Shown in pieces: positions 3,166-21,695 of a stretch of DNA of 59,359 nucleotides (position 1 is its first letter; each line of letters opens with the position of its first letter). The stretch is from Clostridia bacterium (GTDB taxonomy: Bacteria; Bacillota; DSM-521; Neomoorellales; JACIYF01): the NCBI GenBank assembly GCA_014360065.1, contig JACIYF010000005.1, positions 1 to 59,359 on the forward strand. Reading direction: 5' to 3'. Both the position numbers and the translations under genes were made by a program. Under the pieces are notes generated by a model. It was not told where the DNA came from, did not search any database, and saw only the letters and a program-made list of their open reading frames with translations.

Positions 3166-3261
3166 CTACGGTGGGGCAACTTCGGCCAATTGCTATGATA
3201 GTTAGCATATACAGACTTGAGCCTGGAAGCCTTGTGGCCCTAACCAGCCTTGCCATCTGGC

Positions 3262-3290
3262 TTGACGGTGGACCGGTGATTTACTATAAT
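3262..3290 (+). promoter_or_regulatory. Promoter of the tRNA-Pro/Thr/Gln cluster
   Basis: TTGACG at 3262-3267, a 17-base spacer and TATAAT at 3285-3290, ending 11 bases before the first tRNA. A strong stable-RNA promoter is expected in this position. Confidence 0.85.
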
Positions 3291-3301
3291 AACGTTGCAC
3301 C

Positions 3302-3375
<74 letters not shown>

Positions 3376-3420
3376 CCTCTAGGCTTTTGGCGGAGGCTAG
3401 GGTCAGTAGGCTCGTTGGTC

Positions 3421-3492
3421 GCCGATGTAGCTCAACGGTAGAGCAGCTGATTTGTAATCAGCAGGTTAGGAGTTCGAGTCTCCTCATCGGCT
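3421..3492 (+). tRNA. tRNA-Thr (anticodon TGT)
   Basis: The acceptor GCCGATG (3421-3427) pairs with CATCGGC (3485-3491). The anticodon stem GCTGA/TCAGC holds loop TTTGTAA with anticodon TGT, and the T loop is TTCGAGT. Second gene of the three-tRNA cluster. Confidence 0.95.
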
Positions 3493-3577
3493 CCCTAATG
3501 GGTTATAATAGATGGTGCACTGGCTACGGTTAGAGTTGAGGGCCAGCAAGAGGGATAGACTAGTTTAAGAGTAGCGT

Positions 3578-3649
3578 TGGGGTGTAGCCAAGCGGTAAGG
3601 CAATGGACTTTGGATCCATGATTCGGAGGTTCGAATCCTCCCGCCCCAG
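3578..3649 (+). tRNA. tRNA-Gln (anticodon TTG)
   Basis: The acceptor TGGGGTG (3578-3584) pairs with CGCCCCA (3642-3648), with one G-T pair. The anticodon stem ATGGA/TCCAT holds loop CTTTGGA with anticodon TTG. A T-rich stretch (CTTTTTATTT) follows at once and probably ends the transcript. Confidence 0.95.
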
Positions 3650-3682
3650 CCTTTTTATTTCATTCCAGGAGAAAACCTGTCA

Positions 3683-4642
3683 ATGATAGATTGCATAGCA
3701 TTCAGTCCTGATCGGGGGTTAATCGTCGGTTTAGCCGAAGCTGTTCAGCTGCTTCAGCAAGGGCGATTGCACTGCTGGTTGGATCTGGAGAACCCGCAAG
3801 CAGAGGAAGTGTCTTATTTATCCTCTCAGGTAGGCATTCCCGAGCAACTCTTTGATCTAAAGTGGCGTAGGCAAGATCGGAAGGTCGAGATTGAATCGGT
3901 CGAAGACTTCGACATGTTTGGGTTTTACGTGCCAACAACGGGTAAGAGCTATTCCATTCATCCTTGGCAGTTCATTATACGAAACAACTTGCTTCTAACT
4001 GTCCGCGAAACGACACCGCCATTTCTTTCCGAGATTAAGGCCAAACTGAAGCGCCACCCAGAGCTTCTTGCCCAAGGTATGGGTAAAGTAGTAGCCGGGA
4101 TTCTTGGGGAAAGCGTTAACCTTTTTCTCTCTAGTCTAGAAGAAAACCAGGCCAAGCTAGATCGCTTGGAGGAGGGAGTACTGGCTCACCCCGACCGAAC
4201 TGGATTGAACAAGGTATTCAAGTTGAGAAAGCAAGTGGGCGGGTATTATCGGTGCCTGATGCCCAATGCAGAAGTCTTACATAGCCTATCGTTGCACGAG
4301 GATGGCAGGTATTTTGACCGCCAAACTCACACCCGCCTGGCGGAGCTAAACGAGGAGCTTTTACGGATCGCCGACTTGTATGAGAATTACTATGATCGGT
4401 TTCATGACCTGCTTGAAGCCCACCTTTCTTTGTCTTCGTATCGCACTAACGAAATCGTCAGGGTGCTCACGGTCATAACTACCATCCTTATGCCCTTAAC
4501 CGTGATTACCGGTATTTACGGTATGAACTTTCAACATATGCCAGAACTGCATTGGCGTTATGGCTATTACGTAGTCTTAGCAGGCATGGGGGTGATTGTA
4601 TCCTCTTTGCTGTATTACTTTCACCGGAAAGGGTGGATTTAA
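3683..4642 (+). CDS. corA: CorA family magnesium/divalent cation transporter
   Basis: 319 residues, the normal length for CorA. A soluble, largely helical N-terminal domain of about 250 residues is followed by two C-terminal membrane segments. The signature GMN (in YGMNFQHMPEL) closes the first membrane helix and forms the selectivity filter of the pentameric channel. The start ATG at 3683 follows an AGGAGA ribosome site about 10 bases upstream. It appears to be a single gene between the tRNA cluster and the TetR promoter region. Family call is firm; the transported ion (Mg2+, Co2+ or another) is inferred from the family. Confidence 0.93.
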   Translation: MIDCIAFSPDRGLIVGLAEAVQLLQQGRLHCWLDLENPQAEEVSYLSSQVGIPEQLFDLKWRRQDRKVEIESVEDFDMFGFYVPTTGKSYSIHPWQFIIRNNLLLTVRETTPPFLSEIKAKLKRHPELLAQGMGKVVAGILGESVNLFLSSLEENQAKLDRLEEGVLAHPDRTGLNKVFKLRKQVGGYYRCLMPNAEVLHSLSLHEDGRYFDRQTHTRLAELNEELLRIADLYENYYDRFHDLLEAHLSLSSYRTNEIVRVLTVITTILMPLTVITGIYGMNFQHMPELHWRYGYYVVLAGMGVIVSSLLYYFHRKGWI

Positions 4643-6590: not shown

Positions 6591-6627
6591 GGGAGCCGGT
6601 CGCATCAACCTATAAGCCCCGGAGCTG

Positions 6628-6694
6628 TTGATTCTTCTGGTGCGGCAGAAGGGATTTGAACCCCCACGAGCGCTATGCCCACTAGACCCTGAAT
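6628..6694. repeat. att repeat copy 1 (tRNA-Leu 3' fragment), outer left border of the island array
   Basis: 67 bases identical to 11619-11685 and nearly identical (two mismatches) to 21598-21664. Bases 6638-6694 equal the 3' part of the tRNA-Leu(CAG) gene from the CCA end to the anticodon loop, in minus orientation, and then the match stops. This is the expected scar of tyrosine-recombinase integration into a tRNA gene: the original 3' end has been displaced to the far side of the inserted DNA. Confidence 0.9.
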
Positions 6695-7344
6695 TTCCTG
6701 CAGGCTGCTTTGTGAAGTCCATGTGCTGTTACCCGATGTAGGGATTGCAAGCTTTCCCGCCGTTTCCGCGCTTTCTCATACCCTATTACGCGACGTCCAT
6801 CTGCACCTGGGTAGTTGGACTGGTTGTAGTAACCTCGGAGTTTTATTAGCGCCATATGCTAGATTTTTTGGCCTATGCTTCTATGCCACGCCAAGTGAGA
6901 CCTTGGCGGTTTTTTGTTGCAAATAACTTTTTATAGCCGGGCTATCACGCCCGGCTATTTTGCACCTCAAAAAGACCAGGGCTCACGTGAGCCCTGGATT
7001 CGGAGGCACTCCTAAGCCGTTCCTAATACCAAGGATCAACAGGGTGGACACTTCGCGTTTGAGCCTTTGCCGCGCAAGGCTTTTGGGCATTACGTCTCCC
7101 GCTTGGCGGGAGCTTCACATATACCATACTTTTCCAGATAAGACTGCGGTGAAAGTCAAGTAGTTCTGCAAGGAAATTTTGCGATTGATCCTGGCCATAA
7201 GATCGCTGCTCTTTGGCAAAATGGGCGCACAGGAATAAGCCCACAAAAGAAGGCTCCTTTGGGCGACAGAAAATGTCGGGGCGCACCGCGTAAGCGTGTT
7301 GACGAGTCTTTCGCCCTTTGGTAGATTAAGGCTAGGCGAAGACC
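6695..7344. other. Non-coding left part of element 1 with stem-loops
   Basis: No convincing gene in about 650 bases. It holds two tandem terminator-like hairpins on the plus strand: CGCCAAG/CTTGGCG followed by GTTTTTT (6889-6914), and ATAGCCGGGC/GCCCGGCTAT followed by TTT (6933-6960). A perfect 22-base palindrome lies at 6976-6997 (half-site CCAGGGCTCAC). Short hairpin CTCCCGC-TTG-GCGGGAG is near 7099-7115. The far right end near 7200-7344 probably contains one end of the IS110-family element. Confidence 0.6.
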
Positions 7345-8733
7345 TTACGTGTTGACTGCTGGGTAACCCCGCGCATGTTCCTGCGGCTTCGCAGAGTTCT
7401 TTGGGGTATGCGGCGACCGTTTGGTCTTCGCTTTTCTCCGGACGGCCTTTATACCCCGCCTGTTTTGGGCCGTAGGATCGAGAACCTTAGCATTCACCTC
7501 CTGCCTGGCGCCCTCGGCTTGGTAGAGCACTCCCTTAGACAAAAGGGCATAGACGAGGCGCACCAGCTTACGTGCGGTGAGCGACAGCGCTCGCTTTTTG
7601 GAATGGCGAGGGGTTTCTTTGGCCTTCCTGGCATAGTACTCCCGGTACTCCTGGTTATGCATCACCAGGCATTGAGCCGCCTGGATCAGGTAGTAACGCA
7701 GGTACGGATTGCCGGTCTTGGTCATGGGGGTAATATCCCCGTTAAAGCCGCCGGACTGGCGCTTCCTCCAGGTGAGCCCGGCAAACTTGGCCAGCTTTTC
7801 CTGGCCGCTAAAGCGGGAGATATCGCCGATTTCGGATATGTCCGCTGCCAGCACCGCCCCGATGCCCGGGATGGAGGTGAGCGTCTGGGGGATCCCGGCC
7901 AGGTGTTTGGCAATGCGCTTGTCCAGCCGCTTTAAGAGCTTGTCTACAAGCTCCAATTCATTGAGGGCGAGTTTGACTATGAAGTGGACCTCTTTGGCCA
8001 GCACCGGGGGTATAAAAAAGGAGTCCTGGGCCGCCCGAAGGACAGTCTCGGCCTTTTCCTCTAGGTGGCTGAAGTGGTTGCGGCTAAACCTTAAAAGGTA
8101 GGCCTTAAGCTCCTCCAGGGATAAGGACCGCATGTCCTTAGCCGAGCCAAACAGCTTTAAAAGCTGGCCGGAACAAGCTCCGAACAGGTCCGAGAAAGGT
8201 CTAGCCCGCATCCATTCGCTAAAGGTCAAAAACAAAAGGGACTGAAGGTAATTCTTAAGCTGGGATTGATGCTGAACCAGGTGGTAGCGGAAGCGGGTCA
8301 GCCTTTCGAGGGCCAATAGGTCCTCGTCCGGGAGGTGCTGCTCGCTCAGGCGGCCGAAGCGGAGCCGGTCGGCGATCAGCGAAGCGTCAATAGGGTCGGT
8401 CTTGTCCATGTCGGCATAGGTCTTGCGGATCCCCTGGACCAGCTTGGGATTCAAGGCCAGGACCTGGGCCCCAAGGAGGCGCTCGTCGTTTCTCAGCGCC
8501 CAAAACAGCGGAAACCAGTATAAAGAGGTAGCCTCCATGCCGATTGAAAGCGCATCAAACCCGGAGTTCTCCATGAGCCCACATAGGTGCTCTATCATCT
8601 TGGCGGTGCCGGGAAGATTGTTGGGAAACCTCCGGGTCTTGCCCACGGCCCGGCCGTCGCCGTCCATCACAAACAGCTGGTTTTCCGTAAGGCTGACATC
8701 GATGCCGCAAAACAAGCGTCTTGACAAGTTCAT
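7345..8733 (-). CDS. IS110-family transposase (DEDD recombinase)
   Basis: About 462 residues. The N-terminal RuvC-like domain has FCGIDVSLTE (first Asp), GMEATSLYWFPLF (Glu) and DKTDPIDASLIAD (paired Asp), the DEDD set of IS110-type transposases. A long helical middle leads to the C-terminal Transposase_20 domain (SIPGIGAVLAADISEIGDI; SGGFNGDITPMTKTGNPYLR). ATG at 8733 follows AAGGTGG on the minus strand. The gene is full length and uninterrupted, so the element may be active. IS110 transposases work with a bridge RNA transcribed from a non-coding end; the upstream segment 8740-8930 is the natural place to look. Exact insertion ends cannot be fixed here because IS110 elements often lack terminal inverted repeats. 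Confidence 0.92.
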   Translation of the reverse strand: MNLSRRLFCGIDVSLTENQLFVMDGDGRAVGKTRRFPNNLPGTAKMIEHLCGLMENSGFDALSIGMEATSLYWFPLFWALRNDERLLGAQVLALNPKLVQGIRKTYADMDKTDPIDASLIADRLRFGRLSEQHLPDEDLLALERLTRFRYHLVQHQSQLKNYLQSLLFLTFSEWMRARPFSDLFGACSGQLLKLFGSAKDMRSLSLEELKAYLLRFSRNHFSHLEEKAETVLRAAQDSFFIPPVLAKEVHFIVKLALNELELVDKLLKRLDKRIAKHLAGIPQTLTSIPGIGAVLAADISEIGDISRFSGQEKLAKFAGLTWRKRQSGGFNGDITPMTKTGNPYLRYYLIQAAQCLVMHNQEYREYYARKAKETPRHSKKRALSLTARKLVRLVYALLSKGVLYQAEGARQEVNAKVLDPTAQNRRGIKAVRRKAKTKRSPHTPKNSAKPQEHARGYPAVNT

Positions 8734-8739
8734 CACCAC

Positions 8740-9242
8740 CTTAGGATTAGTTGGGCATAAGGGTCCCTTAAGCCCGGCCAGATCAACACCCTCGCTTCAA
8801 TTAGAATTCTAAGAAACAAACTGCGCGTCAGAAGTACCGGCCGGGCCAGGGGGCACGCTCTTTTCAAGAAGTCACCGAAGTGCAACAAGGAGGAACTGTG
8901 CTTCCCCTATGTCCAGGGACCATCATGCCCGAAACCCAGGACCCTGTAAAGGCCTGTGGATATGCCGCGGCTGTGGACTTCTGGACAACTCGGCTGGCCA
9001 AAAAACAGCATCTTTGTTCCAGACTCCTTTGAGCCAACCTTGTAGCTATCGCCAAGGGTTGCCCAGAGGGTCCACAGCCGCTTGGACAACGCTTCCGCGT
9101 TGCCCACATACCCACAGGCCCGGCGGCGGGGGCTGATGAAGAAGATGCTCCCACACCCAAAAACCTGAGGCCTATGGGTCCTGGAACCTAGATGTATGAA
9201 GGTTTCAAAGAGCCTATTGGGTTGCGATTTAATCTTAATACG
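8740..9242. other. Non-coding region upstream of the IS110 transposase with nested inverted repeats
   Basis: About 500 bases with no gene that I can support. 8753-8775 is a 23-base imperfect palindrome (GGGCATAAGGG/CCCTTAAGCCC) and 8801-8812 is the palindrome TTAGAATTCTAA; both lie where an IS110 bridge RNA would be encoded. Further out are three concentric pairs of inverted repeats: 8936-8944 with 9176-9184, 8951-8964 with 9107-9120 (one mismatch), and 8967-8978 with 9070-9081. They define a foldable unit of about 250 bases, possibly a small non-autonomous element or a structured RNA. Confidence 0.6.
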
Positions 9243-9255
9243 AGGAGGTATGACC

Positions 9256-9699
9256 ATGAAGAAGTTGTTAGCGGTAGTGTTGGCGGGAGTATTGTTGTTG
9301 GCGGGATCGGCTATGGTTGGCTTTACATGGGTCTACGACCCGGTGACAACCGAGCCAGTGGGAACGGAGCCCCTGCCCTGCCCGGTGCTGGCCAGGAACT
9401 ACCTTTACCAGTTAGACGATACTCAGACCGGAGGCAAGGAGCTCTCCGCTACTTGGAGGGCCATGCAGCTTGACGAGTCAAAGACCTACGATGACAGCTA
9501 CATTGCCGAGCCCGGGGCCAGCCACCCCACCTATACGGCTGTTGTAGGAAAATCGGCGGCGCGGCAGAAAGAAGATGTGTGCTATTCAGGCTTTTTAGGT
9601 ACAATATTGTCAACAGCAGGGCAACTGATCGGTGCGATCGGAGTGAGAGTTTATGACTACTGCCAAGGAGGAACTGCTTCGCGTTGTAGAAAGCCTTGA
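9256..9699 (+). CDS. Small exported protein of unknown function
   Basis: About 147 residues beginning MKKLLAVVLAGVLLLAGSAM, a clear signal peptide with basic start, hydrophobic core and small residues before a likely cleavage site. The ATG at 9256 follows AGGAGG (9243-9248). The mature part (TWVYDPVTTEPVGTEPLPCP and on) has three or so cysteines and no domain that I recognise. Its last 15 codons overlap the next gene at 9653 in another frame, so the native C-terminus may have been altered by rearrangement. It belongs to the decayed element 1. Confidence 0.55.
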   Translation: MKKLLAVVLAGVLLLAGSAMVGFTWVYDPVTTEPVGTEPLPCPVLARNYLYQLDDTQTGGKELSATWRAMQLDESKTYDDSYIAEPGASHPTYTAVVGKSAARQKEDVCYSGFLGTILSTAGQLIGAIGVRVYDYCQGGTASRCRKP

Positions 9700-9871
9700 T
9701 GAGGGGCAGGCGGAAAAGCTCCTCAGAGCTGCCCAGAAGGTTAAGGGGATCAAGCAAAAAGACCGTAAATGGCCCGGGACCAGCCTGCTTAAGCTGGCCG
9801 GGGCTTTTGAAGGTCCCCCTGATTTATCTGAGCGGCACGACCATTACCTGGCTGGGGAACCTAATGGATAG
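9653..9871 (+). CDS. VapB-like antitoxin candidate
   Basis: 72 residues, starting MTTAKEELLRVVESLDEGQA, acidic and helical at the N-terminus with a proline-rich tail (GAFEGPPDLSERHDHYLAGE). It overlaps by 8 bases an ATG that opens a PIN-domain fragment, the arrangement of VapB antitoxins upstream of VapC. Its first 30 residues resemble those of the antitoxin-like protein at 10059. Function is inferred from position and size. Confidence 0.6.
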   Translation: MTTAKEELLRVVESLDEGQAEKLLRAAQKVKGIKQKDRKWPGTSLLKLAGAFEGPPDLSERHDHYLAGEPNG

Positions 9872-9995
9872 AATGGCGGTGCTGGTCGATACCAGCGTAA
9901 GCGGTTCAAACCAGACCGGTAATAAAACATTACCCGTCTGGTTTGTGCCAAAATCGGGGACATTCTGCACGATGCTGTTGACGTTTTTCTTCTAG
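9864..9995 (+). pseudogene. Truncated VapC-like PIN-domain toxin
   Basis: The reading frame opens MDRMAVLVDTSV, the typical first beta strand and catalytic Asp of VapC PIN toxins, then departs from the family at about codon 13 (base 9900) and ends after 43 codons. A normal VapC has about 130 residues, so the rest is lost. The break coincides with the inverted repeat at 9907-9945, suggesting insertion or deletion by a mobile sequence. It overlaps the putative antitoxin gene by 8 bases. Confidence 0.65.
9907..9945. repeat. Inverted repeat at the vapC break point
   Basis: CAAACCAGAC (9907-9916) pairs with GTCTGGTTTG (9936-9945), and GGTAAT (9918-9923) pairs with ATTACC (9929-9934), around a 5-base loop AAAAC with one mismatch. 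It begins just where similarity to VapC stops, so it may be the end or remnant of a mobile element. Alternatively it could act as a transcription stop, but no T-run follows. Confidence 0.6.
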
Positions 9996-10058
9996 AGGCT
10001 GGCATAGGATCAGGCTATAATATCCATAGTGGGAGTATTCTAAAGGAGGCGTAAACCC

Positions 10059-10301
10059 GTGGGCGTGCCTAAGGACGAGCTACACCGGCTGGTGGAGGCA
10101 TTGCCGGAGAAGGAAACCTCCGCGGTGAAAAGGTTTTTAGAGTTCGTGTTAGAGAAGGCTGAGGCCGAAGACCGGTCCTGGCTGGAAGCCGATTTAGGGG
10201 AGCTTCCCCCGTATGACTGGGGTCCGGAGGGCCCGCCTAAGGGAAAACCGGTGCGGTATCAGCCTGGCGTTGGCTTGGTTGTAGAAGGGGGCAAGAAGTA
10301 G
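10059..10301 (+). CDS. MazE/PemI-type antitoxin candidate
   Basis: 80 residues starting GTG at 10059 with AAGGAGG at 10043-10049. Helical, charged N-terminus (VPKDELHRLVEALPEKETSA) and a proline- and glycine-rich tail ending near RYQPGVGLVVEGGKK. It directly precedes the PemK/MazF-like gene, whose GTG start shares the last base of its stop codon, so the two are translationally coupled as toxin-antitoxin pairs usually are. A TATAAT at 10016-10021 may be part of the promoter. The antitoxin role is inferred from the partner. Confidence 0.7.
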   Translation: MGVPKDELHRLVEALPEKETSAVKRFLEFVLEKAEAEDRSWLEADLGELPPYDWGPEGPPKGKPVRYQPGVGLVVEGGKK

Positions 10302-10666
10302 TGGCCGCGAATCGGGTGGCCCCGGGGGATATCTTGCTTATTGCCCTTCCCTCCCAGTACCCCCACGGGCACGAGCAGGAAGGAACTCGACCGGCTGTTG
10401 CGGTTGGCATCCCCCAGGGGCCTGTACGCTACCCTGTGGTAATCGTAGTCCCCCTGACTACGCAAAGTGGTCCTTGGGCCAAGAAAAATCCCTCTTTATA
10501 CCAGACCCTGCCGCCAGGGACTGGAGGGCTTCCCAGGGTCTCCACCGCTCTGGTCGATCAGGTACGGGCAGTTGACATTAGGCGCGTAAGGGCCTACCTG
10601 GGCACCCTGGAAGAGGCGGCCTTTAAGCCCATTCGAGACAGCCTGCTGAGGCTCTTTTCTGATTAA
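10301..10666 (+). CDS. PemK/MazF-like toxin (endoribonuclease)
   Basis: 121 residues with the PemK/MazF layout: GDILLIALPSQYPHGHEQEG then TRPAVAVG near the start, the strand VVIVVPLTTQ in the middle, and STALVDQVRAVDIRRV with the conserved Asp-Gln toward the C-terminus. Members are sequence-specific mRNA interferases neutralised by the adjacent antitoxin. Length and coupling to the upstream antitoxin are typical. It lies inside element 1 and would help keep that element in the chromosome. Confidence 0.88.
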   Translation: MAANRVAPGDILLIALPSQYPHGHEQEGTRPAVAVGIPQGPVRYPVVIVVPLTTQSGPWAKKNPSLYQTLPPGTGGLPRVSTALVDQVRAVDIRRVRAYLGTLEEAAFKPIRDSLLRLFSD

Positions 10667-10736
10667 GCCTTGCCATCTCCTTGGGAGTTCTCCTCCTTTT
10701 TGAGCTCAATGTCTTCTCTAGTAACCCATTCAAGGG

Positions 10737-11558
10737 GTGGCGGTCAAGGAAGGATTGGTAGCCAGGAACGTTGCCAAGGACGTGGAGCTGCCTCCGGAGA
10801 AGAAACCTGACCCGAAGTTTCTCGCTGAGAAGCAGGTACGGCAGTTCCTGGATGTCGCTAGAGGCCATCGCCTCTATGCAGCCTTTTTGCTGGATCTCGG
10901 GACTGACCTCCGGCGTAGCGAGCTTCTTGCCTTGCGCTGGCAAAACGTCGATCTGGAAGCCGGGACTTTGCGGGTAATGAAAGGCATAGGACAGGTAAAG
11001 GGCAACCTGCTGTACCAGCCCCCTAAAAATGAGACTTCCTGGCGGACTGTGCCGATGCCCAGGGCCGTTTTGCCCGAGCTAAAGCGGTGGAAGGTCCGAC
11101 AGAACCAGGAAAAGTTGCTATTGGGCGAAGCCTATCATGACAGCGGACTGGTATTTGCCAAGGAGGACGGGACTCTGCTAAAGCCGAGGACGTTTTACCA
11201 CCACTTCAAAAGGCTGGCGGAAAAGGCTGAACTGCTTTCGGGCGTTACTCTCCACTCTCTCCGGCACACCTTCGCGACCTTGCTCCTGCAGTACGGGGTG
11301 CATTCGAAAGTGGTGCAGGAGCTTATGGGGCATAGCGACTATTCTGTAACCATGGACACCTATAGCCACGTGATGCCTCCAATGATGTACCAAGCAGTGA
11401 ACGTTCTCAACGATGTTTTAGGAGAGAAAAAGAACCCTTCCCTGAGAACCCCAAGGAAGGGAACTAGAAGAAGCACAAAACCTAGCGCTTACAGCCGTCA
11501 GGACCGCCTCCTGGCGGCTGCGCATAGCGCTAGCGGCAACGCCCACAGGTTGTTGTAA
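10737..11558 (+). pseudogene. 5'-truncated tyrosine recombinase (integrase) of element 1
   Basis: The frame covers the end of the core-binding domain and the whole catalytic domain: Arg in DLRRSELLALRW, HSLRHTF, GHSDYSV and the nucleophile Tyr in DTYSHV. It lacks the N-terminal arm and most of the core-binding domain; the frame upstream of GTG 10737 is closed by TAA at 10722. It aligns throughout with the element 2 integrase (for example KVRQNQEKLLLGEAY against KARQNQERLMLGPAY). The 3' codons overlap a long hairpin (11482-11533). It is probably inactive, so element 1 is likely stranded unless the related integrase acts on it. Confidence 0.82.
11482..11533. repeat. Long imperfect hairpin at the end of element 1 integrase
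   Basis: CTAGCGCT (11482-11489) pairs with AGCGCTAG (11526-11533), and inside it CAGCCGTCAGG pairs with CCTGGCGGCTG with one mismatch. No T-run follows, so it may be a recombination-related or structural element and not a terminator. Confidence 0.6.
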
Positions 11559-11618
11559 CGTTGTAGTATCCCGACAAAATGACGTTAAACTAGTCTCCAG
11601 CCGCAAACGCTGAAGCCC

Positions 11619-11685
11619 TTGATTCTTCTGGTGCGGCAGAAGGGATTTGAACCCCCACGAGCGCTATGCCCACTAGACCCTGAAT
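11619..11685. repeat. att repeat copy 2, junction between elements 1 and 2
   Basis: 67 bases identical to 6628-6694. Bases 11629-11685 are the tRNA-Leu 3' part (CCA to anticodon loop, minus orientation), followed by unrelated sequence. It shares a further upstream stretch (AACGCTGAAGCCC) with copy 3 but not with copy 1, which shows that the two elements carry the same type of att flank beside their integrase genes. Confidence 0.9.
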
Positions 11686-11976
11686 CTCACTATCTTCATT
11701 TAATCCAGTTTAGCCTAGTGCCAAAACCCCAGCAAAATCAAGGTTTTTTGGCCTTCCTGCTGGCATAGCCTTCCTGTTGGTTTAACCCATTTTAATGCTT
11801 TTTAACCGTATTTGCATTATGAATTGCATTACTGCAGTAACCCGGAGGCGGCCTATTGGCCGTTGTTTTAACTCTAAACTACTTCTTCATATGGAGGCTA
11901 AAAAACTATTGACAGACCAACGCGAACTGATATAATTAATCCAGAAAGCACGTTTCCAAGTATAGGCGGGGTACGT
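11686..11976 (+). promoter_or_regulatory. Left end of element 2: candidate integrase arm sites and promoter
   Basis: No gene in this stretch. TGCATTA occurs at 11813-11819 and 11825-11831, a pair repeated near the other end of the element at 21529-21535 and 21540-21546, as expected for arm-type integrase binding sites. A promoter TTGACA (11909-11914), 16 bases, TATAAT (11931-11936) stands in front of the gene at 11977. Confidence 0.65.
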
Positions 11977-12884: not shown

Positions 12885-13670
12885 ATGGCTTCTGAGGTAA
12901 GTATATCACAATTTGCTTATGAATACTACAAGCAAGGATTCGCAATCATTCCGGTTGCCCGTAGTAAAAAGCCCCTCGTTCGATGGGAAGAACTCCAGCA
13001 TCGTAAGCCAACAAGCGAAGAAATAACTGCGTGGTGGAGGCGGTGGCCCAAGGCCAACATCGGCTTGCTGACGGGTGAAATCAACCAGTTAATAGTCCTA
13101 GACGCGGACGGCAGAGAAGGCTTGGCCACCCTGCGCGGTAAGCCCCTGCCACCAACTCCTTGTGCGAGAACTGGCGGAGGCGGCCTCCATTATTATTTCC
13201 GGCACCCCGGCTATCCGGTGCAGAACTTTGTTCGCAAGCTACCCGGCCTGGATTTTAGAGGCGATGGCGGGTATGTGTTGGCCCCGCCAAGTCTCCATCC
13301 TTCCGGGAAGCGGTACGAATGGGTAACAGGCCTCGCTCTCTTTGAGATTGAGTTGGCCCCGCTCCCGGCCTGGCTGGTGGCAATCCTAAAACCCGAGCGG
13401 CCCCAAGGATTGAGCCGAAGCGTTGAGGACTGGCGGAAGCTGGTGAGCGAGGGAGTAACCGAAGGGCAGCGGAACAACTCCATAGCGGCCTTGGCGGGGC
13501 ACCTACTTCGCAAGTATGTTGACCCATGGGTGGTCCTGGAGCTTTGCCTGGCCTGGAACCAGGTGAAATGCAGGCCCCCGCTAGACGATGATGAGATAGT
13601 CACAACTGTAGATTCGGTAGCCCGGCTTGAAGCTAAGCGGCGGCAAAGGGAGGCGAGGCAAGATGCCTAG
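12885..13670 (+). CDS. Bifunctional primase-polymerase (Prim-Pol) domain protein
   Basis: 261 residues. The N-terminal 180 match the prim-pol domain of archaeo-eukaryotic primase type: YYKQGFAIIPVARSKKPLVR, WWRRWPKANIGLLTG, then LIVLDADG with the metal-binding Asp pair, TGGGGLHYYFR with the catalytic His, and GLDFRGDGGYVLAPPS. The C-terminal part (GVTEGQRNNSIAALAGHLLR) matches the primase C-terminal helical region. It would prime or copy element DNA. ATG 12885 follows AAAGGAGC. It overlaps the next gene by 8 bases, forming a replication module. Confidence 0.88.
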   Translation: MASEVSISQFAYEYYKQGFAIIPVARSKKPLVRWEELQHRKPTSEEITAWWRRWPKANIGLLTGEINQLIVLDADGREGLATLRGKPLPPTPCARTGGGGLHYYFRHPGYPVQNFVRKLPGLDFRGDGGYVLAPPSLHPSGKRYEWVTGLALFEIELAPLPAWLVAILKPERPQGLSRSVEDWRKLVSEGVTEGQRNNSIAALAGHLLRKYVDPWVVLELCLAWNQVKCRPPLDDDEIVTTVDSVARLEAKRRQREARQDA

Positions 13671-14961
13671 GGAGCTTGTAGGAATTGCCAGCCTCTTGGC
13701 ACAGAAAGATAGGCCAGCAGAGCCGGAGCCCGAGCTTCGGATAGCACCCTGGCCGGACCCCCCAAAGCCACAGGCTTTTTTTGGCCTTGCCGGAGACTTC
13801 ATAAGGAAACTGGAACCGCATACGGAGGCCGACCCGGTAGGTATCCTGGTGCAGTTTTTGGCGGCATACGGAAATGCCGTAGGCCGAGGTGCTTTCTGCA
13901 CGGTTGAAGCGGACAAGCACTATCCTAATCTTTTCATTGCCCTGGTAGGTGTAACCAGCGGAGGACGCAAGGGCACTGCCTGGGGACATTGCCGGAGGTT
14001 CTTCAGAACCGTGGCTCCTGACTGGGAGCAAAGGATTATGACCGGCCTGTCCAGCGGCGAAGGATTAATTTGGCAGGTGCGCGACCAAGAAGATGACGAT
14101 GAAGGCGTGGCAGACAGGCGGTTACTGGCCTACCAGCCCGAGCTTGCCAGCGTATTAAAGGTTATGGAGCGGGAAGGAAACACATTGTCGCCTACCCTAA
14201 GAGCCGCATGGGACGGAGAGCCCCTTCGGATTATGACCAAGAATAGCCCGGCTAAAGCAACCGATGCTCACATAAGCCTTATTGGTCATATAAGCAAACA
14301 TGAACTGGTTCGTTACTTGAAGACTACCGAGGCGGCAAGTGGTTTCGGCAACCGCTTTTTATGGGTATGCGTAAAGCGGTCTAAGGTCCTCCCGGATGGC
14401 GGCAATATCCAGGCGGTGGATTTTGGCCCGGAACTTAGAAGGCTGGCGGAGGCCATAGAGTTTGGGAAGACCGCTGGGGAATTACAACGAGACGAAGAAG
14501 CCCGCGAAGTTTGGCACCATGTGTATGAGGCGCTTACGAGGGAGAAGCCCGGTTTCTTGGGAGCAATGATAGCACGGGCGGCCCCCCAGGTAGTGAGGTT
14601 GTCCTTGATTTATGCGCTTTTAGACCTAAGTCCAGCCATAAGGCGGGAGCATCTGGAAGCGGCCCTGGCCCTTTGGGACTTTTGCGAAGCCTCAGCCAGG
14701 TTTATTTTCGACGAATCGCTGGGTGACCCCAATGCCGACAAGCTATGGGAGGCGCTTCGCAAAAAACCAGAGGGTATGACCAAGACGGAGATACGGGACC
14801 TATTCCAGCGAAATCTATCGGCCAAAGAAATGAGCCGGGTGGCGGGGATGCTCGTAGACTTCGGCTTGGCCGAGTGGAGGGAAAGTCCCAGCACAGGGGG
14901 GCGTCCAGCCCAAAAACTGGTTGCTAGGCTTTTGTCGCCTTTTGTCGTTGACCCCCCATAG
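13663..14961 (+). CDS. DUF3987-like replication-associated protein
   Basis: 432 residues from ATG 13663, overlapping the prim-pol stop. The sequence FIRKLEPHTEADPVGILVQF, then LFIALVGVTSGGRKGTAW (a degenerate P-loop) and SSGEGLIWQVRD resembles DUF3987 proteins, RecA/helicase-like partners of prim-pol primases in phages and islands. Later SLIGHISKHELVRYL and GFGNRFLWVCVKRS fit the same family, and the C-terminal 100 residues carry a winged-helix-like region (GMTKTEIRDLFQRNLSAKEM). Probable role is a replicative helicase-like ATPase; the lysine of the P-loop is kept but the loop is not canonical, so activity is uncertain. Confidence 0.65.
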   Translation: MPRELVGIASLLAQKDRPAEPEPELRIAPWPDPPKPQAFFGLAGDFIRKLEPHTEADPVGILVQFLAAYGNAVGRGAFCTVEADKHYPNLFIALVGVTSGGRKGTAWGHCRRFFRTVAPDWEQRIMTGLSSGEGLIWQVRDQEDDDEGVADRRLLAYQPELASVLKVMEREGNTLSPTLRAAWDGEPLRIMTKNSPAKATDAHISLIGHISKHELVRYLKTTEAASGFGNRFLWVCVKRSKVLPDGGNIQAVDFGPELRRLAEAIEFGKTAGELQRDEEAREVWHHVYEALTREKPGFLGAMIARAAPQVVRLSLIYALLDLSPAIRREHLEAALALWDFCEASARFIFDESLGDPNADKLWEALRKKPEGMTKTEIRDLFQRNLSAKEMSRVAGMLVDFGLAEWRESPSTGGRPAQKLVARLLSPFVVDPP

Positions 14962-16828: not shown

Positions 16829-17320
16829 ATGATGGCCCGGAAATGCTCCATATGCGAACACCCACGAGCGGACGAAATAAACGCGGCCCTACTAGGCGGC
16901 GTCCCATTACGGGACATAGCGGGACAATTTTCCGTTTCCAAAACGGCCCTGCATCGGCATAAAGACCATGTCCCTGCCGGCCTGGTGAAGGCCCAGGAAG
17001 CCCAGGAGATAGCCAAAGCCGATACCCTTCTTGACCAAGTTACCGAACTGCGGGACAAGGCCCTTTCCATCCTTGCCAAAGCAGAACAGGCCGGAGATTT
17101 GCGGACGGCCCTGCAGGGTGTGCGGGAAGCAAAAGGGTGCCTGGAACTACTGGCAAAGCTGCAGGGAGAGTTACAGGAACGGACTACCGTCAACGTCCTG
17201 ATTAATCCGCAATGGCTATCCTTACGAGCAGCGATATTGGCGGCCCTGGAGCCTTTCCCGGAGGCCAGGCTAGCACTTGCCCAGGCCTTGCGGGAGGTGG
17301 AAAGCAATGCTGGTAAGTGA
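16829..17320 (+). CDS. Terminase small subunit-like DNA-binding protein
   Basis: 163 residues. It starts with KCSICEHPRADEINAALLGG, then VPLRDIAGQFSVSKTALHRH, a helix-turn-helix preceded by a Cys-x2-Cys pair, followed by long helices (about residues 55-130) suitable for oligomerisation. It overlaps by 14 bases the gene for the terminase ATPase. Small terminase subunits recognise the packaging site and recruit the large subunit. A hairpin with arms CCCAGGG/CCCTGGG (16776-16805) sits just upstream and could be a recognition site or an RNA hairpin. Assignment depends on domain layout and the neighbour. Confidence 0.65.
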   Translation: MMARKCSICEHPRADEINAALLGGVPLRDIAGQFSVSKTALHRHKDHVPAGLVKAQEAQEIAKADTLLDQVTELRDKALSILAKAEQAGDLRTALQGVREAKGCLELLAKLQGELQERTTVNVLINPQWLSLRAAILAALEPFPEARLALAQALREVESNAGK

Positions 17321-18077
17321 CCTGGCACAAGCGTTAGACCCGGTTATTTTCGCCAGGGAAGCGTTAGGTTTTACCCCTGACCCCTGGCAGGAGCAGGCGT
17401 TAAGGTGGAGCGGTAAGCGGCTTTTATTAAACTGTTCACGACAAAGCGGAAAATCGACAACGGCGGCAATCCTGGCCCTGCATAGGGCGATATTTTACCC
17501 TTCCTCCCTGGTGCTGCTGGTAAGTCCCAGTTTGCGGCAATCAAGCGAGCTTTTCCGCAAGGCACAGGACTTGCTGAAGGCGTTACCAGCAGAGCAGCAG
17601 CCCGAACTTGTAGAGGATAACAAGCTGTCCTTAACCATGAAGAACAAAAGCCGGATAGTTTCCCTGCCCGGCAGCGAAGGAACTATTCGAGGCTTTAGCG
17701 GTGCCAGTCTCATTATTGAGGATGAGGCGGCTAGGGTGCCCGATGACCTTTACTTTGCGGTGCGGCCCATGCTGGCAGTATCAGGCGGCAGGCTAATCCT
17801 AATGTCAACCCCCTTCGGCAAGCGAGGCCATTTCTTCAAGGAGTGGACTGAAGGCAGCGACACTTGGGAACGGATACAGATAACGGCCCATGAATGCCCT
17901 AGGATAAGCCCGGAGTTTCTGGAGGAAGAGCGGCAGGCCCTCGGTGAATGGTGGTTTAGGCAGGAATACCTTTGCGAATTTGTGGAAACGGTTGACCAGG
18001 TTTTTACTTACGACCAGGTGATGGCGGCCATAAGCGGGGAAATTGAACCCTTGTTCGGAGGTGCAGGCAATGTATAA
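17307..18077 (+). CDS. Terminase large subunit, ATPase part
   Basis: 256 residues from ATG 17307 behind GGGAGGTGG. Typical packaging ATPase: adenine-binding TPDPWQEQALRW, Walker A SRQSGKST, Walker B LIIEDEAARV, coupling motif LILMSTPFGKRGHFF and the end of the ATPase domain WWFRQEYLCEFVE. The frame stops right after the linker (AISGEIEPLFGG), where normal large subunits continue into the nuclease domain. The next gene supplies that domain and its ATG overlaps this stop (ATGTATAA), so the enzyme is encoded as two coupled polypeptides. Confidence 0.88.
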   Translation: MLVSDLAQALDPVIFAREALGFTPDPWQEQALRWSGKRLLLNCSRQSGKSTTAAILALHRAIFYPSSLVLLVSPSLRQSSELFRKAQDLLKALPAEQQPELVEDNKLSLTMKNKSRIVSLPGSEGTIRGFSGASLIIEDEAARVPDDLYFAVRPMLAVSGGRLILMSTPFGKRGHFFKEWTEGSDTWERIQITAHECPRISPEFLEEERQALGEWWFRQEYLCEFVETVDQVFTYDQVMAAISGEIEPLFGGAGNV

Positions 18078-18675
18078 ATTCTTCCTTGGCCTTGACTTGG
18101 GACAGGCTCAGGACTATACGGCCCTGGCGGTGGTGGAGCGGAAAGTTTTCCGTTACGAGGCGAAGCCGGATGAATACCATATCCGGCACTTGGAGCGGCC
18201 CAAGCTGGGTACTCCCTACCCGGCCATTGTGGAGCGGGTACAGAACCTGATGCAGTCTAACCAGCTAATAAACCGGACGGCCCTGGTGGTGGATAAAACC
18301 GGCGTGGGTGCCCCGGTGGTGGATATGTTCAGGAAGGCAGGACTTAGGCCCGTGGCAATCACTATTACCGGGGGGAATTCCGCAAGCAGCGGTGACGGCG
18401 GCTACCATGTCCCTAAGCGTGACCTGGTAACTACCCTTCAGGTGCTATTCCAGACCGGGAGGCTTAAGGTGGCGGCGGAATTGGCTGATGCCCGGCTTTT
18501 GGTGGAGGAACTGCTGAACTTCAAGGTGAAAATCAACGTCAAGACGGCCCATGACAGCTATGAAGCCTGGCGGGAGGGTGTGCATGACGACCTGGTATTG
18601 GCAGCGGCCCTAGCCTGCTGGTATGGGGAGAAGTGCCAGAGGATGACCCCAGTCCCTAAGCCGGCAGGCTGGTGA
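18070..18675 (+). CDS. Terminase large subunit, nuclease part
   Basis: 201 residues from ATG 18070 behind GGAGGTGC. It matches the RNase H-like nuclease domain of large terminases: LGLDLGQAQDYTALAVVE (first catalytic Asp), TALVVDKTGVGAPVVDMFR (second Asp), PKRDLVTTLQVLFQ and AWREGVHDDLVLAAALACW (third Asp pair). All acidic residues are kept, so the nuclease should be active if it docks with the ATPase half. In most phages the two domains are in one chain of about 450 residues. Confidence 0.85.
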   Translation: MYKFFLGLDLGQAQDYTALAVVERKVFRYEAKPDEYHIRHLERPKLGTPYPAIVERVQNLMQSNQLINRTALVVDKTGVGAPVVDMFRKAGLRPVAITITGGNSASSGDGGYHVPKRDLVTTLQVLFQTGRLKVAAELADARLLVEELLNFKVKINVKTAHDSYEAWREGVHDDLVLAAALACWYGEKCQRMTPVPKPAGW

Positions 18676-18757: not shown

Positions 18758-19144
18758 TTAGTCCCAAAGTCCAATTACTTCTTCTTCCATCTTAGTGCCA
18801 CATAGTGGGCAAGGCATGTTTTCCGTATCAAAGAGAGGTACTTCCTGGCAGCAATTCAAGCAGCGGGTTCGGGGTTTATCAGGATTGGCGTAATCGGGCG
18901 GACAGGCTATGCTCCGGTCATCCAGGAGAAAGACGGTTTCAAAACTGGTAGCAGTTTGGTTAGCTCCTTCTGGCCAAGTAAAGTCTTCATCGCGAGCCAC
19001 CATAGGGGTAGTAAACTTCTGGCACCTGGGGCACCAGACCACGCCATAGCATTGGCGAGACCAGCCCCACCCAATACACAGTATACCGCTATTTAACCCG
19101 CATTTAGGACACCGAAGCGTTATCATCTCACCCATATTTGGCAT
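18758..19144 (-). CDS. Zinc-ribbon protein of unknown function
   Basis: 128 residues with three Cys pairs typical of zinc ribbons: CPKCG near the start, CPRC at about residue 38 and, in the C-terminal half, CLNCC plus CPLCG. A central acidic, beta-type stretch lies between. ATG 19144 overlaps the stop of the upstream helix-turn-helix gene by one base, so the two form a small operon transcribed leftwards. A role in transcription or DNA binding is likely but unproven. Confidence 0.7.
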   Translation of the reverse strand: MPNMGEMITLRCPKCGLNSGILCIGWGWSRQCYGVVWCPRCQKFTTPMVARDEDFTWPEGANQTATSFETVFLLDDRSIACPPDYANPDKPRTRCLNCCQEVPLFDTENMPCPLCGTKMEEEVIGLWD

Positions 19145-19329
19145 TACTCCTTTACTTCTTGTTTCTGTTCTTCACCTTTCAATAGACGGTTTAATTCGGA
19201 TTCGGAGATTCGCCAGAAGTGACCTATTTTAACGGCCTTTAGGTGGCCTTCCCTTATCCATCGATAAAGTGTTCGTATATCAATCTTAAGTTTCTGGGCA
19301 ATTTCTTGCGGCGTATAAAAGTTTTCCAT
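19144..19329 (-). CDS. Excisionase/MerR-type HTH regulator of element 2
   Basis: 61 residues with the HTH_17 fold: FYTPQEIAQKLKIDIRTLYR then WIREGHLKAVKIGHFWRI and ESELNRLLKG. It is divergent to the operon beginning at 19461 and has its own leftward partner, the zinc-ribbon gene. The divergent region carries palindromic AAGTACTT and two CACTTCTG copies, plausible operators. It could be the lysogeny-type repressor or the excision factor of the element. Confidence 0.8.
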   Translation of the reverse strand: MENFYTPQEIAQKLKIDIRTLYRWIREGHLKAVKIGHFWRISESELNRLLKGEEQKQEVKE

Positions 19330-19387: not shown

Positions 19388-19416
19388 TTGACATTCCGCT
19401 GTTACTGATATACACT
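19388..19416 (+). promoter_or_regulatory. Promoter for the small-gene and integrase operon of element 2
   Basis: TTGACA at 19388-19393, 17 bases, TACACT at 19411-19416, directed to the genes from 19461 on. Overlapping AAGTACTT (19383-19390) and the repeated CACTTCTG (near 19365 and 19432) suggest repressor sites. Confidence 0.7.
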
Positions 19417-19460: not shown

Positions 19461-19745
19461 ATGAAGCAGATTGTTGACGGCAAGCTGTACGACACGAAAA
19501 AGGCCCAGCTGGTGGCCCACGACCGTTACTGGGACGGGAGAAACTTTGAGAGGAACGGCAGGAATACCTATCTTTACCGGACGGCCAAGGGGAACCTTTT
19601 CCTGCACCATACCACCTGCTGGCAGGGGGAGCGGGACTACATTGAGCCCGTGTCCAAGGAATACGCCAAGGCCATGTACGAGGAACTGCCGGAGCATGAG
19701 CTTGGGTACGAAGAAGCCTTCGGGGAAGCCCCGGAGGAAGCCTAG
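19461..19745 (+). CDS. Conserved mobile-element hypothetical protein
   Basis: 94 residues: KLYDTKKAQLVAHDRYWDG, then NTYLYRTAKGNLFLHHTT, and PVSKEYAKAMYEELPEH at the C-terminus. This layout (GKLYDT-type start, LYRTxxGxxFLH middle, acidic tail) recurs in small proteins of Firmicutes conjugative elements and phages, whose function I do not know. ATG 19461 is preceded by GGGAGGAAGAGGC. First gene of an operon continuing to the integrase. Confidence 0.65.
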   Translation: MKQIVDGKLYDTKKAQLVAHDRYWDGRNFERNGRNTYLYRTAKGNLFLHHTTCWQGERDYIEPVSKEYAKAMYEELPEHELGYEEAFGEAPEEA

Positions 19746-19757
19746 GGAGGAAGCAGG

Positions 19758-19997
19758 ATGGTTACCATTGACATCAAGTCTCTTTACGGCGATACCGCCA
19801 AGCTGGACCAGTTGGCAGAGTACACCAGCAAGGCCAAGGAATTGGCCGGGAGCGGCAATGATGTGGTTCTTACCGGCCCCGCTCCTGTTTGGCTTTACCT
19901 TGCCGTGGCCCATACCCTGCATGGAGTAGCTAAAAGCCTTGCCTATGACAGCCCGGTTACCGGTAAGGTGGTTATCTTCAATCATAACCCGTTTTAG
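19758..19997 (+). CDS. Csx3-like small protein, candidate cyclic-oligoadenylate ring nuclease
   Basis: 79 residues from ATG 19758 behind GGGAGGAAGCAGG. The second half, VVLTGPAPVWLYLAVAHTL, then SLAYDSPVTGKVVIFNHNP, matches the core pattern of Csx3 (Gly-x-x-Pro-Ile/Val-Trp-Leu, a helix with His, a strand ending Tyr-Asp-Pro-like turn, and a final VVV-type strand with His). Csx3/Crn3 proteins degrade cyclic tetra-adenylate, the messenger of type III CRISPR. The Arg of the usual Tyr-Asp-Pro-Arg turn is not present and the protein is shorter than the 105-110 residues of studied members. No cas gene is nearby, so in this island it might serve as an anti-CRISPR or have a different nucleotide-binding role. 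Confidence 0.55.
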   Translation: MVTIDIKSLYGDTAKLDQLAEYTSKAKELAGSGNDVVLTGPAPVWLYLAVAHTLHGVAKSLAYDSPVTGKVVIFNHNPF

Positions 19998-20009: not shown

Positions 20010-20285
20010 ATGAATCCATCGGCTAGAGAGATTATCGAGAGCTATGAGCGAGCGGCAGAGTCTTTGCTTACCGACCCAGCCATACGGCCCATACTTTGGG
20101 ACCAGCTTCGGAACCCGCTAGATTGGGATGCATCCCCGAAAGAATGCCTTGAGGTTGCAATGGGAGCGGGACTGAAGTCTGAAATAGCTGTTCTCGGTTA
20201 CCTGTTTATCCAGCGGCTTCGAGGACTTTCCAGAAAGGAGCTAGAGCGTTTGCTCCTGGTTGAGGGGAGAAGAAAAGATGGCTAA
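20010..20285 (+). CDS. Hypothetical protein upstream of the integrase
   Basis: 91 residues from ATG 20010 behind TAGGAGGAAGAGGC. Helical throughout (REIIESYERAAESLLTDPAI, then EVAMGAGLKSEIAVLGYLF), no family that I recognise. Its last 8 bases overlap the integrase start, so it is translationally coupled to the integrase. Confidence 0.6.
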   Translation: MNPSAREIIESYERAAESLLTDPAIRPILWDQLRNPLDWDASPKECLEVAMGAGLKSEIAVLGYLFIQRLRGLSRKELERLLLVEGRRKDG

Positions 20286-21471
20286 GCGGCGGGGCAATGG
20301 TGAAGGAACCATCTACAAGCGGTCTGATGGCACTTGGGCAGGCCAAGTAACCGTTGGCTATGACCCGGAAACGGGGAGGCCAAGGCGCAAGAGCTTCTAT
20401 GGCAGAACCCGGAAGGAAGTTGCCGACAAGATGGCTGAGGTTTTGCGGAGTGTCAGGACTGGCACTTATGTTGAACCTGTAAAGACTACCCTGGCTGAGT
20501 GGTTGGACTGCTGGCTTGCTGGAAAGAAGGGGCAGTTAAAGCCAAGCACTTTCGAGAGCTACGAAAGGCTGATTGATACCCACATCAAGCCTGCTTTGGG
20601 CAAAACCCCGCTGGCAAAGCTACAGGCCCATATGTTGCAGGCTTTCTACAACGAGAAGCTGGAAAGGGGTAGAGCAGATGGCAAAGGCGGCCTGTCAACC
20701 AGGATGGTGCGCTACCTCCATACCATAATCCGGGAGGCCCTGCAACAGGCGGTCAAGGAGGGACTTCTGCCCCGCAATGTTGCTGATGCCACCAGCCCGC
20801 CGGTAGCCAAAAGCAGACCCATTCGACCCCTGACCGAAGAGGAACTGCTTATCTTCTTTGAAGCGGCCAAGGATGACAGATTGTTTCCGGCCTATGTGCT
20901 TGCGGCTACCACCGGCTTAAGGCGGGGAGAACTTTTAGGTTTGTGCTGGGACAGCATAGACCTGGAGCATGGCGCTATTGTTGTCCAGCGGGAATTGCTG
21001 GCGCTGAAGGAAGGCCTTTTCCTGCAGGACACCACCAAGAGCAAGAGCGGCAGGCGAACCGTTACCCTGACCGATGACGCAATCCGGGAGCTAAGGAAGT
21101 GGAAGGCCCGGCAGAACCAGGAGAGACTGATGCTTGGCCCAGCCTACCAGGACAATGGGTTAGTATTCTGTCGGGAGGACGGCACCCCGCTTGACCCCTC
21201 AGAATTCACTAAGCATTTTCAGAGGCTTTTGGTTAAGGCTGGACTTCCCAAGGTGAGGCTGCATGACCTTCGGCATACCCATGCCAGCCTTTTGCTGGCA
21301 AGGGGAGTGCATCCTAAGGTGGTCCAGGAGCGGTTAGGCCACAGCAGTATTACCTTGACCCTTGACCTATACAGCCATCTTGCCCCTGGCCTAGAGGAAG
21401 GGGCGGCACATACATTGGACGGCTTACTGAGGAAAGAAAGAGGCCCTGCGAGGACGCAAGGCCAAAGATAA
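20278..21471 (+). CDS. int: Tyrosine recombinase, integrase of element 2
   Basis: 397 residues from ATG 20278. N-terminal AP2-like arm-binding domain (GNGEGTIYKRSDGTWAGQVT), SAM-like core-binding domain (about residues 65-160: TLAEWLDCWLAGKKGQLKPS), then the catalytic domain with Arg in GLRRGELLGLCW, Lys in the beta hairpin (TKSKSGRRTVTLT), HDLRHTHASLLL, GHSSITLTL and Tyr in DLYSHL. The gene ends 127 bases before an att copy at the tRNA-Leu gene. Full length with all catalytic residues, so likely active. Integrates at the tRNA 3' end. Confidence 0.95.
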   Translation: MAKRRGNGEGTIYKRSDGTWAGQVTVGYDPETGRPRRKSFYGRTRKEVADKMAEVLRSVRTGTYVEPVKTTLAEWLDCWLAGKKGQLKPSTFESYERLIDTHIKPALGKTPLAKLQAHMLQAFYNEKLERGRADGKGGLSTRMVRYLHTIIREALQQAVKEGLLPRNVADATSPPVAKSRPIRPLTEEELLIFFEAAKDDRLFPAYVLAATTGLRRGELLGLCWDSIDLEHGAIVVQRELLALKEGLFLQDTTKSKSGRRTVTLTDDAIRELRKWKARQNQERLMLGPAYQDNGLVFCREDGTPLDPSEFTKHFQRLLVKAGLPKVRLHDLRHTHASLLLARGVHPKVVQERLGHSSITLTLDLYSHLAPGLEEGAAHTLDGLLRKERGPARTQGQR

Positions 21472-21516: not shown

Positions 21517-21597
21517 TTTGCCCAAAACTGCATTAAAACTGCATTACTGAGGCTGTTTTTGTGCTGGTTTCGGAAATTGGCCCGAACGCTGAAGCCC

Positions 21598-21664
21598 TTG
21601 ATTTTCCTGGTGCGGCAGAAGGGATTTGAACCCCCACGAGCGCTATGCCCACTAGACCCTGAAT
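21598..21664. repeat. att repeat copy 3, within the intact tRNA-Leu gene
   Basis: Same 67-base repeat as at 6628 and 11619 with two mismatches. Here it continues into the rest of the tRNA gene, marking the tRNA-side border of the array. Confidence 0.9.
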
Positions 21665-21695
21665 CTAGCGCGTCTGCCAGTTCCGCCACTGCCGC
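21608..21695 (-). tRNA. tRNA-Leu (anticodon CAG), integration target
   Basis: On the minus strand the acceptor GCGGCAG (from 21695) pairs with CTGCCGC, the anticodon stem CTAGA/TCTAG holds loop TTCAGGG (anticodon CAG), a long class II variable arm follows (TGGGCATAGCGCTCGTGGG), then the T arm with TTCAAAT, discriminator A and an encoded CCA (21608-21610). Its 3' two-thirds is duplicated at 6638 and 11629 by integration of the island elements. Confidence 0.95.

Follow-up and report, generated by a model that had tools for sequence, protein, structure and literature searches.

The locus analyzed here raises the question of what a small Csx3-like protein might do when it is encoded within an integrated mobile element rather than in a type III CRISPR locus. 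The ORF in question lies at positions 19758–19997 on the plus strand of the window (the whole 59,359-nucleotide stretch of DNA under analysis), with its ATG at 19758 and its stop codon ending at 19997. It codes for 79 amino acids, is spaced from the preceding gene by 13 bases and, as read from the sequence, has a good ribosome-binding site.

An earlier note on this DNA had proposed that the product adopts the Csx3 fold, and the profile searches, structural model and PDB matches now concur on this point. The Pfam Cas_csx3 profile (PF09620) recognizes the protein at 32.5 bits against a curated cut-off of 21 and also scores above that cut-off in all 28 aligned homologues, relatives of the protein being found in many phyla at 60–81% identity. 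The best profile overall is the PADLOC family CARF2--CARF_HEPN_CSX3 (PDLC01844), which matches residues 2–78 with an E-value of 4.5e-37, the matched part being the C-terminal Csx3 domain of CARF-HEPN-Csx3 fusions; the NCBIfam equivalog TIGR02579 (Crn3) gives 29.4 bits, under its cut-off of 55.4. A sequence search of the PDB returned only the Csx3 of A. fulgidus (AfCsx3). The structure predicted from the 28 homologues (pLDDT 95.6) likewise retrieved AfCsx3 as all of its best six Foldseek matches in the PDB, with probabilities of 0.99–1.00 and TM-scores of 0.60–0.65 by query length, albeit with E-values of merely 0.005–0.05; a viral fold library yielded no convincing relatives of the model. Together, these results confirm that the Csx3-like ORF is real and that its similarity is far beyond chance. 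The note had further suspected a shortened, minimal form of Csx3. This we reject: 79 residues is a usual size for this domain, whose Pfam and NCBIfam models have 78 and 83 positions, respectively, and the protein is short only by comparison with the A. fulgidus chain of ~104 residues.

The element spans 9,979 bp between two 82-nt attachment repeats that are 98% identical, the left one at 11606–11687 and the right one at 21585–21666, overlapping the 3′ part of a tRNA-Leu (CAG) gene (21608–21695, minus strand) that represents the integration target. tRNA genes are the usual type of target for tyrosine integrases. On the plus strand, the element codes for a phage-type primase-polymerase (12885–13670), a helicase/primase-like replication protein (13627–14961), the ATPase part of a terminase large subunit (17277–18077, phrog_7579) and a second terminase part (18043–18675, phrog_27743, with a weak terminase large subunit match). 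These are followed on the minus strand by a 128-aa cysteine-rich, zinc-ribbon-like protein (18758–19144) and a 61-aa excisionase-type helix-turn-helix (HTH) protein (19144–19329), the latter being among the HTH genes of the element and divergent from the apparent operon that contains Csx3. This operon is a plus-strand run of four genes, namely a 94-aa companion belonging to phrog_38278 of unknown function (19461–19745), Csx3 itself, a 91-aa protein (20010–20285) and a tyrosine integrase (20278–21471; phrog_1, Phage_integrase). It is preceded by a promoter-like site, TTGACA-17-TACACT (19388–19416, plus strand), which is a consensus match only, such sites occurring in the region about as often as expected by chance. 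Three small unknown genes had been claimed to accompany Csx3; the neighbors are the 91-aa protein, which belongs to no known family, the 94-aa one, a phage protein with a 71% identical homologue adjoining Csx3 in another element (L044), and the HTH and zinc-ribbon-like proteins. The characterization of the surroundings as a mobile element devoid of CRISPR genes stands, with attachment repeats, integrase, terminase and primase all in place and no cas genes recognized among the element proteins scanned. No capsid gene was recognized in the 9,979 bp either, and the element would seem to resemble a phage satellite or a reduced prophage.

Several features of this region deserve mention in their own right. 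The terminase large subunit is split over two overlapping genes (17277–18675), each of which matches a separate phage family; a broken or frame-shifted terminase at 18043–18077 was considered and rejected, because phrog_7579 and phrog_27743 are distinct families of about the lengths of the respective parts. A third copy of the tRNA-Leu attachment repeat occurs at 6628–6697, which suggests that an older tandem element of about 5 kb occupies positions 6628–11687; it contains an IS110-type transposase (7345–8739), a MazEF-like pair (10059–10666) and a truncated integrase (10737–11558). Elsewhere in the same genome, contig C92 (L065:5408–10051) carries a related element with 88–92% identical stretches, in which the companion gene is shortened and a lipoprotein-like gene (6626–7207) fills the pre-integrase position where Csx3 would be expected. 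The slot ahead of the integrase behaves as would be expected for a cargo slot.

Relatives were collected from three viral contigs and from 26 genome loci, among which L027 is a short match that looks spurious, and further genomes were added by search. Three contexts emerged for the subfamily: it is carried by mobile elements or phages, lies in type III CRISPR loci, or is fused to CARF-HEPN ribonucleases. In the first of these it occurs as free proteins of 79–85 aa in integrated elements (the window, L002, L003, L004, L005/L043 and L044), as a copy broken off by a frame shift (L026) and on viral contigs (L028, L029 and L034, the last in a 122-aa form). The L002 and L004 elements are prophage-like and bear capsid genes, the L043 element has tRNA-Pro attachment repeats 8,255 bp apart, and the phage contigs carry terminase or RecE-like genes. 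A homologue of the divergent HTH protein adjoins Csx3 in six elements (the window, L002, L004, L005, L026 and L044) that otherwise share little gene content. In the second context, free proteins often come right after the gene for a CARF8 or SAVED4 membrane effector and precede reverse transcriptase, Cas1 and Cas2 genes, these last three having been read by eye. In the third, Csx3 forms the C-terminal domain of CARF-HEPN proteins of about 500 aa. A tree of 32 domains, which rests on a short alignment and has many weak branches, groups the integrated mobile-element copies with the phage copy L028 (support 87/82) and 12 of the 13 fusions with each other (99/97), the CRISPR-locus copies falling mostly apart. 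The profile scan of viral contigs gave three matches only; neither the 79-aa protein nor a canonical phage-like copy retrieved anything from 50,697 phage records, and a plasmid search produced a single weak match of the canonical type.

Two side observations concern these contexts. Among the CRISPR loci, the effector associated with Csx3 is of the CARF8 or the SAVED4 type depending on the locus (L006, L009, L013, L015, L017 and L022), such that different sensors are combined with one off-switch domain. Further, the phage contig L028 encodes (2218–4467) type IV Cas7 and Cas5 together with a PAPS-reductase-like (CysH/DndC-like) protein, an arrangement resembling type IV-B loci.

Type III immunity, which the earlier note had named as the target, is indeed represented in the host. 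A 10.6-kb contig (C89) of the window genome contains a type III-D-like locus coding for a cyclase-type Cas10 with a GGDD motif, Csm3/Csx7-like and Csx10 proteins and a CARF1-HEPN effector with an R-X-H motif; no Cas1 was found. All four searchable hosts of mobile Csx3 copies (this genome, G021, G373 and G343) encode a Cas10 whose GGDD motif is intact and a CARF-HEPN effector carrying an R-X4-6-H motif, as against a background in which the same model detects Cas10 in 107 of 399 genomes of the phylum (27%). This association with type III systems is suggestive, the sample being small and two of the four hosts belonging to one order. A DNA search of the genome itself and of related genomes, a weak test for this purpose, gave no spacer matches to the element, returning instead matches to attachment sites, integrases and related elements along with short ones at chance level.

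We consider it fairly likely that the protein is an anti-defense cargo of this satellite-like element, acting as a Csx3-fold dimer that removes cyclic oligoadenylate and thereby blunts type III immunity. The proposal combines what was computed, i.e., homology, fold, mobile context, conservation and a matching host signaling system, with what we infer, i.e., dimerization, binding, cleavage, the identity of the nucleotide and the timing of expression. Under it, transcripts of the element or of its helper phage would be detected by the host type III complex, whose Cas10 would then make the cyclic messenger. The small dimer-forming protein would deplete this messenger, most likely cA4, and would probably do so by hydrolyzing it in a metal-dependent manner at a face bearing three histidines, and the CARF-HEPN ribonuclease would thus be kept from switching on. 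Hydrolytic removal appears the most likely mode because relatives with the same signature, both fused and in CRISPR loci, sit where an off-switch is expected. Counting against the proposal are the replacement of two nucleotide-contacting arginines, Arg71 and Arg46, the missed TIGR02579 cut-off, the lack of spacer matches in the weak DNA search, the lack of a published activity for the subfamily in the literature searched and the small sample of four hosts.

The active site bears on both the mechanism and its alternatives. Crn3 ring nucleases are characterized by an Mn-dependent cleavage of cA4 within a head-to-tail sandwich formed by dimers. In AfCsx3, cA4 is held between two dimers with Arg71 and Arg46 contacting the nucleotide; Asp69 and His60 are essential, H60A abolishing ring nuclease activity, while R71A and H80A strongly reduce it, and Arg71, called "absolutely conserved", is reported to matter for activity (PMC7371418). 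The protein in the window shares with canonical Csx3/Crn3 (A. fulgidus AF_1864; PF09620, TIGR02579) the fold, the GxxPxW core, the two-histidine helix and the C-terminal histidine. Its His52, His55 and His76 align with AfCsx3 His57, His60 and His80, and all three positions are invariant in the 28 aligned homologues, as the earlier note would have it for the close ones. Its expectation of a conserved aspartate is borne out only within the mobile-element cluster, because the position varies elsewhere: Asp64, the equivalent of Asp69, is an aspartate in all six integrated mobile-element copies and a glutamate in the phage copy L028, this cluster being the only one in which the position is uniformly acidic, whereas many other members of the subfamily have R, S, Q, A, G, T or E. 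The arginine reported as missing from the turn is truly replaced, by Val67, but this is no peculiarity of a single copy, as 32 of 32 subfamily sequences have Val, Thr or Ala there; at the Arg46 position, the six integrated copies carry Pro or Gln. The turn itself reads YDSPVTG rather than YDPRLG, conforming to a subfamily motif Y-x-S-P-x-T-G in which Ser65 and Pro66, along with Tyr47 upstream, are newly invariant. Since Arg71 is replaced throughout the subfamily, the protein is, on the sequence evidence, a variant of the Csx3 superfamily and not a canonical Crn3. With the histidines invariant, Arg71 and Arg46 replaced and the Asp69 position variable, the subfamily is predicted to have kept one face of the active site and to have rebuilt the other around the invariant Y-x-S-P motif.

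The same residues could be read as those of a sponge, which, having lost the Arg71/Asp69 portion of the active site, would sandwich the messenger between dimers and hardly cleave it. The mutations R71A and D69A impair AfCsx3, and its H60A variant still binds the messenger and forms fibers (PMC7371418); moreover, Csx15 is a tight binder and a very slow enzyme that nevertheless neutralizes defense in vivo (PMC13148439). However, a pure sponge would have no need of the invariant histidines of the catalytic, metal-binding face, the large amounts of messenger produced in type III responses have been argued to defeat sponging (PMC13148439), and the fusion of the domain to a ribonuclease is best understood if the domain is a timer and hence a catalyst. 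We therefore regard a sponge as unlikely. Alternatively, the protein might be an active enzyme whose specificity is unlike that of the studied Csx3, directed for instance at cA3, cA5, cA6 or SAM-AMP. The joint replacement of the cA4-contacting Arg46 and Arg71, the newly invariant Tyr47, Ser65 and Pro66 and the acidic residue at the Asp69 position that is uniform in the mobile-element cluster alone would fit such a shift. The effectors neighboring or fused to the domain in type III settings belong, however, to CARF and SAVED types, for several of which cA4 is the known signal, and we hold a changed specificity to be quite improbable.

Another conception is that the gene serves the host or lysogen, where it would dampen the accidental response of the host's type III system to prophage transcripts instead of aiding invasion. 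It would be consistent with the intact maintenance of Csx3 in integrated elements and with the type III fragment on the 10.6-kb contig, in which no ring nuclease of its own was seen. Against it, Csx3 also occurs on phage contigs and, in unrelated elements, in a variable slot beside their integrase or HTH gene, so selection appears to follow the elements; we accord this service role a low probability, even though the two roles are not mutually exclusive. That Csx3 is a passenger or a decaying gene with no present function, as the frame-shifted L026 copy and the related C92 element without Csx3 might hint, is highly improbable, for the mobile copies in elements of different families show dN of ~0.16–0.38 against dS that is above 1 or saturated, and thus evolve under strong purifying selection, with the residues of the subfamily motif intact.

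Returning to the anti-defense proposal, we more tentatively raise the possibility that the mobile-element copies constitute a separate lineage of Csx3-fold anti-CRISPR proteins, in which the arginine-containing nucleotide face has been rebuilt and catalysis or cyclic-nucleotide specificity altered, and which is carried by satellites, prophages and phages. The best profile match of the protein in the window is the domain of the CARF-HEPN-Csx3 fusions (PDLC01844), which is about 60% identical and shares the whole subfamily signature; the protein differs in being a free 79-aa polypeptide without effector domains. Invader-encoded removal of cA4, as proposed here, is the activity of the viral ring nucleases AcrIII-1 (DUF1874) and AcrIII-2 (SAVED; PMC12751052), two viral ring nucleases that are named anti-CRISPRs in the literature that we searched. 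Their folds are unrelated or only distantly related to Csx3, and their activity has been shown, whereas that of the Csx3 variant is predicted. Other small ring-nuclease families likewise travel on mobile elements, albeit with other folds, such as Crn4b on phages and plasmids (PMC12830947) and Csx16 and Csx20 on phages; in a 2025 survey covering 28,114 phage genomes, the ring nucleases named as phage-encoded are AcrIII-1, Csx20 and Csx16, with no Crn3 (PMC12409355). The open-access literature searched, from which many subscription papers are missing, contained neither an account of Csx3 carried by phages or mobile elements nor one of any activity of the variant subfamily. If the proposal is true, the mobile-element branch would provide invaders with a further route to erase the type III alarm signal, and a single domain would have been put to three uses, namely as an off-switch built into effectors, an off-switch in CRISPR loci and a counter-defense weapon. 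In a 79-residue protein without the known catalytic arginine, the mechanism is directly testable.

Finally, canonical versions of the domain were also encountered in phage-like records. A Crn3 with the YDPRLG turn is encoded in an apparent early operon (L070:6603–6887) of a phage-like 18-kb linear "plasmid" of Pyramidobacter sp. YE332 (NZ_CP133039.1), which additionally codes for a holin, Rha, a LexA-type repressor, an integrase and a DNA polymerase. Copies 63–81% identical to it are present in three IMG/VR contigs (L071, L072 and L073), of which L072 has a clear terminase and L073 less clearly viral surroundings. Since these canonical copies with the YDPR turn occur independently in phage-like records, they appear to form a second phage-borne Csx3 lineage, such that Csx3 would have entered phages more than once.
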